Positions 54,431-56,550 of a stretch of DNA of 58,034 bases are shown piece after piece. The notes beneath the pieces are model-generated. The model was given only the letters and a program-made list of their open reading frames with translations. It was not told where the DNA came from and searched no databases. Source of the stretch: Nitrospiria bacterium (GTDB lineage: Bacteria; Nitrospirota; Nitrospiria; JACQBZ01); assembly GCA_035498035.1 (NCBI GenBank), contig DATKAN010000009.1, forward strand, positions 1 to 58,034. The letters are read 5' to 3'. Numbering within the stretch: position 1 is the first letter of the stretch; each line of letters opens with the position of its first letter. Position numbers and translations under genes: made by a program.

Positions 54431-54460
54431 TTGACTGCGATTTAATCCCTGTGTTATAAA
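54431..54460 (+). promoter_or_regulatory. sigma-70-type promoter of the glnB leader
   Basis: TTGACT (54431-54436), 18 bases, TATAAA (54455-54460). Start expected near 54467. Confidence 0.6.
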
Positions 54461-54466
54461 ATAGCG

Positions 54467-54530
54467 AGACACAACGAGGTGTTCATGACATTGGCGTCTT
54501 CTTTGATCATCGGGAAGACGCCTTTTTAAT
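54467..54530 (+). ncRNA. glnB leader RNA with two hexaloop hairpins and an internal terminator (ANTAR-target-like)
   Basis: Hairpin 1: ACAC (54469-54472), loop AACGAG (54473-54478), GTGT (54479-54482). Hairpin 2: GAC (54487-54489), loop ATTGGC (54490-54495), GTC (54496-54498), overlapping the left arm of the terminator at 54493. Both loops are six bases with A at 1 and G at 4, the signature described for ANTAR antiterminator substrates. A 14-codon frame (54484-54528) starts behind GAGGTG and runs through the terminator. Hairpin stems are short, so this is a prediction. Confidence 0.5.
54493..54530 (+). terminator. intrinsic terminator inside the glnB leader
   Basis: A 9-bp perfect stem, GGCGTCTTC (54493-54501) with GAAGACGCC (54514-54522), then TTTTTAATTTT. 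It lies between the promoter and glnB, so full-length transcription needs antitermination. Confidence 0.9.
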
Positions 54531-54638
54531 TTTAAGGGAGCGACTGGCTCAGCCAGCGCGAGCGCGGGGTGCGGGGGCATGTGAGGACCTTGTTTCTTCT
54601 TGGCCGCAGCGGCCCCCGATGTAATCGGAGGATTCGCA

Positions 54639-54983
54639 TTGAAAAAGATCGAGGCTTATATCCGTTCCGAAAAGATCGGTGAAGTGAAGGAAGCCCTAAC
54701 CCGGATCGGTATCCAGGGAATGACGATCATGGAGGTCCGAGGGTTTGGTCGCCAGCGCGGTCACATTGAGTTGTATCAGGGCGCGGAATATACGTTGGAC
54801 TTTGTCCCGAAGATGAAGATCGAGGTATTTATCCCGGACAAGGACGCCGCGCGCGTCGTCGAAGTGCTGATGCATTCGGCAACGACCGGACGGACGGGGG
54901 ACGGGAAGATCTTCGTGCTGCCCGTCGAGGAAGGCGTCCGAATCCGGACCCAGGAGCGCGGCGAGGCCGCCGTTTCGATGTGA
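54639..54983 (+). CDS. glnB: nitrogen regulatory protein P-II
   Basis: 114 residues from the TTG at 54639, chosen because GGAGG (54627-54631) precedes it and MKKIEAYIR is the standard P-II start. The T-loop is [16 protein letters not shown] with the uridylylation site Tyr51. [20 protein letters not shown] at the C-terminus is the ATP/2-oxoglutarate-binding region. Senses nitrogen and energy status and controls partners such as glutamine synthetase adenylylation, AmtB or NifA. The NifA-like gene follows after 13 bp. GlnK would be an equally good name; no amtB is adjacent. Confidence 0.93.
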
Positions 54984-54996
54984 ACGACGGAATGGG

Positions 54997-56550
54997 ATGA
55001 AAGATCAAACCACCCCCCGAAAGATCGCGGAATTGACCGCTCTCTACGAGATCAGCCGATCCCTGGCCTCCTCGATGGACCTGCAGGAAACCTCACGCAA
55101 GATTCTTGAAATTCTCGCCTCCGTCCTCGATATGCGTCGTGGAACCCTGACTTTGCTCGACCCCGAAACGGGCGAGCTCGTGATCGAAACCGCGCACGGC
55201 CTCACGCCGGAGGAGATCGCGCGCGGTCGCTTTAAAATCGGCGAAGGGGTGACCGGACGGGTTTTTGAGAAAGGGGAGCCGATGATCGTCCCGGACGTGG
55301 GACGGGAACCGCTTTTTCTCAACCGAACCCGCTCGCGGGGCGACCTTACAAAAGAACGGATCGCGTTTCTCTGCATGCCCGTGAAGACCCATGGCGAAAC
55401 AATCGGGGTCCTGAGCGTGGACCGGCTTTTTAAGAACGGATCGCCCGACCTTGACGACGATGTCCGCGTCCTCACGGTCGTGGCTTCCCTGATCGGGCAG
55501 GCCGTCAAGCTTCAACACACCGTTTCGCGCGAAAAACGGGAACTCCTGGAACAAAACATCCAGCTTCAGAGCGAGCTGAAGAACCGTTACCGGATCGGAA
55601 ACATTGTCGGTCAGAGCAAGGTGATGGACGAGGTGTTCCGGTCGGTCCTCCAGGTCTGTAAGTCGAAGGCCACCGTACTGCTGCGGGGCGAGTCGGGGAC
55701 CGGCAAGGAGTTGATTGCGCGGGCGATTCATTACAATAGCCCGAGGGCCGACCGGCCCTTCATCAAGGTCAACTGCGCGGCGCTTCCCGAGACGCTGCTT
55801 GAGAGCGAGCTGTTCGGACATGAGCGGGGGGCCTTTACCGGCGCGACCCAATTGCGGAGGGGGAGATTCGAGTTGGCCGACGGAGGAACGCTTTTCCTGG
55901 ACGAGATCGGCGATATTCCCCTATCCACTCAAGTCAAACTCCTCAGGGTCTTGCAGGAACAACGATTCGAGCGCGTGGGGGGATCACAAACTCTGTCGGT
56001 GGACGTCCGTTTGGTGGCCGCCACACACCGTAATCTTGAGGCCGCGATCCAGGAGGGAACCTTTCGCGAGGACCTGTATTACCGGCTGAATGTCGTCCCG
56101 ATCTTTCTTCCGTCCTTGCGCGAGCGGAAGGAAGACATCCCGCTTCTGATCGAATATTTCTTGGCCCGCTGCAACAAAGAGCATCACAAGCAGATCCGGA
56201 TCGCTCCGGACGTTCTTCGGGTTATGATCCAATACCACTGGCCCGGAAACGTACGGGAGTTGGAAAACTGCATCGAACGCATGGTCGTTATGGCCGAAGC
56301 GTCGGAGATCACCTTCCATTCGATGCCCTCCAGCATCGCCGCTTACTTCCGTGACGTGCGGGAAGTGACGCGACCGTCCCCGATGGACAGGCCGACGCTG
56401 CAAACCACGGTCGAGGATCTGGAGCGGCAACAGATGCTCGACGCATTGAAAAAATGCGGTTGGGTCCAGTCCCGTGCGGCCAAAATATTGGGCATTACAC
56501 CACGCCAAATCGGGTACAAGATAAAGAAATACAGAATCGAGCCGGGGTGA
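54997..56550 (+). CDS. sigma-54-dependent activator, NifA-like (GAF-AAA+-Fis HTH)
   Basis: 517 residues. N-terminal GAF domain (about 20-170); AAA+ domain (about 205-430) with Walker [16 protein letters not shown], the sigma-54-contacting GAFTGA loop ([11 protein letters not shown]), Walker [10 protein letters not shown] and the [14 protein letters not shown]-type sensor region; Fis-type HTH at the end ([21 protein letters not shown]). Layout and glnB pairing fit NifA, but no nif structural genes are in view, so a general nitrogen regulator is possible. No Cys cluster of the oxygen-sensing rhizobial NifA type. Two sigma-54 promoters lie just downstream. Confidence 0.88.

Follow-up and report, generated by a model that had tools for sequence, protein, structure and literature searches.

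A probable ANTAR-type transcription attenuator in the leader of a Nitrospirota glnB operon, and its likely GAF-GAF-ANTAR partner in the class Nitrospiria

The window, i.e., the whole stretch of 58,034 nucleotides that was analysed, corresponds to contig 9 in an assembly of 2.67 Mb, a Nitrospirota MAG whose relatives are groundwater Nitrospirota MAGs. For comparison, we used a family of seven genomes (G000–G006), with the window genome as G000. A gene for a P-II protein (glnB-like), whose UUG start is kept in five aligned genomes, is followed in the window by a gene coding for a GAF domain, a sigma-54 activator domain and a Fis-type HTH, i.e., a NifA-like architecture (Table 1). The two genes are probably co-transcribed. 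The initial annotation placed a promoter, an intrinsic terminator and two hairpins with six-base loops before the P-II gene, and all of these are present in the sequence. The end of the contig (position 58034) probably adjoins the start of another contig of the same genome (G000:C45), which carries amtB-glnB2-glnD-glnA, as judged from the gene order on contig C14 of G001.

Table 1. Features of the leader and of the genes downstream of it (window coordinates).
Feature	Position	Strand	Details	Basis
Sigma-70-type promoter	54431-54460	+	-35 TTGACT 54431-54436; -10 TATAAA 54455-54460; spacer 18 bp	sequence
P1 hairpin, GACAC-AACGAG-GUGUU	54468-54483	+	5-bp stem; hexaloop AACGAG (A1, G4)	fold; kept in 7/7 family genomes
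P2 hairpin (putative antiterminator), GAC-AUUGGC-GUC	54487-54498	+	3-bp stem; hexaloop AUUGGC (A1, G4)	fold
Intrinsic terminator	54493-54530	+	stem GGCGUCUUC/GAAGACGCC 54493-54522; U-run (T5) 54523-54527	sequence, fold
Dispersed intergenic repeat copy	54538-54627	+	past the terminator, ahead of the ribosome-binding site	16 matches in genome
Ribosome-binding site of P-II gene	54627-54632	+	GGAGGA	sequence
P-II gene (glnB-like)	54639-54983	+	UUG start; 114 aa	Pfam PF00543, E 2.5e-28
GAF / sigma-54 activator / Fis-HTH gene	54997-56550	+	NifA-like architecture	Pfam

The insertion between the terminator and the ribosome-binding site was considered as a component of a regulatory switch and rejected: it is a dispersed repeat, which also has many matches in G001–G003 and is absent from the orthologous leaders of these three genomes. 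A nitrogen-fixation role for the NifA-like gene was likewise rejected, since matches to nifH lay far below the family cut-off in all seven genomes, which argues that the gene does not serve a nitrogenase.

The predicted transcription start (approximately 54466-54468) falls directly at the P1 hairpin; an alternative -10 element, TTATAA, is possible, with the spacer then being 17 bp. As the initial annotation had noticed, A occupies position 1 and G position 4 in both loops, and the second hairpin overlaps the left arm of the terminator; both features are seen in the window. More precisely, the loop and the 3' arm of P2 are part of the 5' arm of the terminator, such that P2 and the terminator are mutually exclusive. 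The predicted energy of the terminator hairpin is -17.5 kcal/mol versus about -1.9 kcal/mol for P2 alone. Given this far greater stability, the default outcome should be termination, and P2 would need outside help to form. The leader displays several features by which ANTAR targets are recognised: both hairpins have stems of 3 bp or more and six-base loops, and P2 overlaps the 5' arm of the terminator. The linker between P1 and P2 is just 3 nt (54484-54486), at the short end of the 2-25 nt range accepted for ANTAR targets (PMC8164766); a study of the eutP leader describes harm to induction when its linker was cut to 3 bases (PMC3369931). A pattern detector, which combined an intrinsic terminator with an overlapping A1/G4 hexaloop hairpin and a further such hairpin upstream, found the complete pattern at a single site when run over both strands of the window, namely at the glnB leader, compared to 0.025 sites per dinucleotide-shuffled window.

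A search with a model of the leader (model R1) recovered exactly one copy in each of the seven family genomes (E 1e-14 to 1e-19). The terminator is kept in the orthologous leaders, and G4 is kept in all 14 family loops. In contrast, A1 is found in 8 of the 14 (six of seven P1 loops and two of seven P2 loops), with G in the remaining ones. Thus, the expectation that orthologous leaders would keep both A1 and G4 along with the terminator held for G4 and only in part for A1. In five of the seven genomes, the G at position 1 of the P2 loop could pair with C6, shrinking the loop to four bases. In the structure of EutV bound to RNA, G4 is the sole base-specific contact, while A1 makes no contact and was suggested by the authors to have a role in folding (PMC8934654). 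Because EutV contacts G4 rather than A1, the appearance of G in place of A1 tells against a strict A1/G4 definition and not against the ANTAR reading as such. Within the window genome, searches for other terminator-coupled ANTAR targets with models R1 (E<=1) and R2 (E<=0.001; described below) matched the glnB leader only, and the single match to GGACAANGRCGTCC elsewhere in the genome has no terminator. In distant genomes, R1 gave weaker matches as well (E 0.01-1).

The absence of an ANTAR gene from the window, stated in the initial annotation, is correct: a search of the whole genome found exactly one (78 bits against a cut-off of 27.3), which sits on contig 49 (G000:C49) directly before nadE. 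Each of the six family relatives also has a single ANTAR gene. The 419-aa protein of the window genome comprises, according to Pfam, two GAF domains (residues 43-183 and 214-352) and an ANTAR domain (361-413), with no receiver domain. It is thus a one-component regulator and not a response regulator, and the proposal of a GnfR-like response regulator as the partner has to be abandoned. Alignments to PDB entries brought up EutV, Rv1626 and NasR, with EutV providing the closest solved ANTAR domain. Among the RNA-contact residues of EutV named in PMC8934654, R142, K143, K149, E160, M172, N173 and R175 are identical in the alignment, and four are changed (K147 to R, Y164 to F, R168 to Q and R177 to S). 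As most of the contact residues are kept, the GAF-GAF-ANTAR protein looks competent to bind RNA, to judge by its sequence.

In three of the six family relatives, the ANTAR gene is found upstream of the leader, no more than about 5 kb away. G003 and G005 share the order ANTAR, nadE, one or two further genes, leader, glnB and NifA-like gene, with nirB beyond the latter; G003 additionally has a gene for a narK-like MFS transporter there. In G004, the order is ANTAR, nadE, leader and NifA-like gene: glnB is missing, and the leader stands directly before the NifA-like gene. These arrangements bear on the possibility that the terminator, which lies about 100 nt past the end of the upstream gene, is merely the constitutive terminator of that gene, with the hairpins arising by chance and glnB being read from another promoter. 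This appears very improbable: the promoter sits past the upstream gene and before the terminator; the aligned orthologous leaders share TTGAC and the -10 region; and promoter, P1, P2 and terminator are kept as a unit despite a different upstream gene in G003 and G005, with the unit staying with the NifA-like gene in G004, where glnB was lost.

The same alignments speak to translation-coupled attenuation, which the initial annotation had offered as an alternative, and in which ribosomes on a 14-codon frame (ATG at 54485 to TAA at 54529) would melt or permit the terminator. This frame is indeed present in the window genome, where it crosses the terminator and is preceded by a weak AGG six bases 5' of the ATG. 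However, the AGG is missing from the other six leaders, which have GATG instead, and no stretch of regulatory codons is seen in the 14-codon frame. Further, the frame shortens to 6 codons in G002 and G006, has no stop within the leader in G003 and G005, and its ATG is absent from that place in G001 and G004. With a length that is variable, or a frame that is absent, across the seven genomes, the ATG frame is not a regulatory element, and the hexaloops and the terminator are kept where the 14-codon frame is not. The alternative is contradicted by this want of conservation, and we regard it as exceedingly unlikely.

The neighbourhoods of ANTAR-positive relatives revealed stronger dual hexaloops in other families, as exemplified by L193, with GCGGGAAAC-AACGAC-GUUUCCUGC followed by GGAC-AAUGAC-GUCC and a terminator. 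Model R2, which comprises P2 and the terminator, was built from 23 elements, taken partly from genomes that were later searched with it. Over these elements, 99.5% of the cells of the terminator stem are paired, with 22 changes on both sides of a pair (none of 500 shuffles scored as high). In P2, 7 cells are changed on both sides, affecting three of its five pairs (1 of 500 shuffles as high).

We then surveyed 147 genomes of the class with this model, counting the RNA at E<=0.001. An ANTAR gene was found in 104 of them, always one per genome, and an RNA target in 100. Both were present in 99 genomes, the ANTAR gene only in five, the RNA only in one and neither in 42; thus, the P2-terminator element accompanies 99 of the 104 ANTAR-positive but only 1 of the 43 ANTAR-negative genomes. 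After removal of 14 training genomes, the relationship holds, with both in 85, the gene only in five, the RNA only in one and neither in 42 (85/90 versus 1/43). The co-occurrence of gene and RNA has a Fisher p of 5.5e-30, a value that ignores relatedness, overstates independence and is not to be taken at face value. The pattern is also visible within a genus: among the genomes of g4 that were listed, the RNA is present in all nine ANTAR-positive ones and missing in 13 of the 14 ANTAR-negative ones. The genome G076 has a strong target (E 1.8e-6), and no ANTAR gene was found in it, which might reflect an incomplete assembly, a recent loss or a false positive.

In 18 genomes, a target and the ANTAR domain share a strand, with the target 124-170 nt past the domain, and the next gene, where read, is nadE. 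The remaining targets that were read mostly precede nirC (formate/nitrite transporter family), and in some cases a cynS-like gene; further targets are situated between nadE and amt-glnB genes. The genes near these targets were named cynS and amt from the look of their sequences rather than by a family search. Of 65 targets that do not belong to the seven-genome family, 46 are preceded by a P1 hexaloop with A or G at position 1 (R1) and with G4, against an expectation of 1.9 from shuffled sequence. Among 54 hexaloops upstream of targets outside the family, 48 carry G at position 4, and the P1 loops there are of the type A..G in 29 cases and G..G in 18. Thus, R1 instead of a strict A1 seems to be the rule of the clade.

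One of the families with these elements, f2, presumably includes Nitrospira: the 16S probe Ntspa662 matches four f2 genomes, and its reversed-pattern control does not. Nitrospira-like genomes have two ANTAR-type targets in tandem, both furnished with a separate terminator, preceding nirC/cynS genes (L128, 16500-16740; L129, approximately 2250-2560; L130, approximately 1870-2060); in the second target of these tandems, position 1 of the P1 loop is mostly G. A different kind of site, a double hairpin, lies upstream of the porin-amtB-glnB2 cluster (L131, 8074-8185; L125, 14102-14190; L126, 15830-15920; L134, 13279-13370). Here, a sigma-54-type promoter is followed by a conserved GGATAC-(G.YG.C)-GTATCC and by GGC-AAYGAA-GCC, both with G4; neither a terminator nor an Rfam family was found at this double hairpin, which is possibly a terminator-less ANTAR site. 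Outside the phylum, ANTAR-type leaders near nadE, amt or glnB were observed on Omnitrophota and Elusimicrobia contigs (L109, 294-357; L099, 562-624; L105, 634-697), and the genomes concerned have one ANTAR gene each. This suggests an old association of ANTAR, nadE, amt and glnB that extends beyond Nitrospirota.

While the conserved terminator makes some attenuation likely whichever the effector, it is scarcely credible that the leader belongs to another known class of attenuators responsive to a protein or metabolite (a riboswitch, a ribosomal-protein leader or a PyrR-like leader) and only looks like an ANTAR target, for this leaves the dual hexaloops with G4, the tight co-occurrence with ANTAR and the gene order unexplained, and Rfam has no family at its gathering threshold in the window, with relaxed settings giving only chance-level matches in the leader.

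The anatomy of the glnB leader, its conservation, the co-occurrence and the gene order together bear out its initial reading as an ANTAR-type antitermination target. We therefore consider it highly likely that transcription of the glnB-NifA-like operon is attenuated in its 5' leader by an ANTAR-type element, at which read-through is enabled by the GAF-GAF-ANTAR protein. Transcription would begin at the P1 hairpin, and by default the stable terminator would form and end it before glnB. A signal received via the GAF domains would activate the sole ANTAR protein, whose ANTAR domain would bind the P1 and P2 hexaloops through their G4 bases. P2, once bound, would be stabilised and the left arm withheld from the terminator, upon which the polymerase could continue into glnB and the gene for the sigma-54 activator. 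From the ANTAR systems already characterised, we infer the binding, the direction of the regulation (antitermination) and the signal. Nitrogen status is the probable signal, given that P-II, nadE, nitrite transport, cyanase and ammonium-transport regions make up the targets. The glutamine-dependent NadE is a known binding partner of P-II, and gene islands that combine PII with nadE have been described in Nitrospirae (PMC7196632). On balance, we also favour a broader proposal, namely that one GAF-GAF-ANTAR protein acts as the nitrogen-status antiterminator of the whole class Nitrospiria, including Nitrospira, via relaxed hexaloops of the R1/G4 type. In most families, it would control nadE, nirC, cynS and the amt-glnB region, and in the present one the glnB-NifA-like operon; terminator-less sites such as the porin-amtB-glnB2 double hairpin would possibly be added to these.

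Control of nitrogen genes by ANTAR proteins has precedents of several kinds. GnfR, of the GnfK/GnfR pair of Geobacter, is a receiver-ANTAR protein that serves nitrogen fixation. The present system resembles it in that nitrogen genes of a Gram-negative lineage other than the enterics would be under the control of an ANTAR protein, in a cascade with sigma-54 regulation; unlike GnfR, the ANTAR protein here is a one-component regulator, and no nifH exceeded the cut-off in the seven family genomes. The RNA is closest in form to the eut leaders controlled by EutV/EutW in Enterococcus faecalis, which have been described as two A1/G4 hexaloop hairpins with the second overlapping the 5' arm of the terminator (PMC3369931, PMC8934654). 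The ANTAR domain of the GAF-GAF-ANTAR protein shares with EutV most of the RNA-contact residues (PMC8934654). In contrast to EutV, a kinase-activated receiver-ANTAR response regulator, the protein here has two GAF domains in place of any receiver, and, unlike in the eut leaders, position 1 of the P2 loop is often G in the seven-genome family. With NasR and the nasF leader of Klebsiella oxytoca (PMC7496416), the system shares a one-component ANTAR regulator, a connection to nitrogen genes and the antitermination that we infer here. However, NasR responds to nitrate via a NIT domain, whereas the protein described here has GAF domains and its candidate targets are P-II, nadE, nirC, cynS and amt-region genes. 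By 2020, only two one-component ANTAR proteins had been characterised, NasR and the light sensor PAL, and no GAF-ANTAR protein is named in that account as having a known RNA target (PMC7496416).

Covariance searches already predicted ANTAR RNA targets before P-II and other nitrogen genes in 2012 (Ramesh et al. 2012, PMC3369931). The present leader matches those predictions in RNA architecture and in the kind of downstream gene, P-II being among the predicted targets described there; we noticed no Nitrospirota case and no GAF-ANTAR partner in the main text of that paper. Thus, the glnB leader itself belongs to a known kind of element, and the novelty appears to lie in its pairing with a GAF-GAF-ANTAR protein, in a regulon that spans the class and in loops that tolerate G at position 1. 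Our literature search brought up no study of ANTAR-mediated control in Nitrospira, and the nitrogen regulation of Nitrospira and its relatives appears to be little studied. Set beside these known systems, the present analysis gives a GAF-ANTAR protein a specific, testable set of targets, and a single RNA switch would link P-II, the glutamine-dependent NAD synthase, ammonium and nitrite transport, and cyanase in Nitrospira and its relatives.
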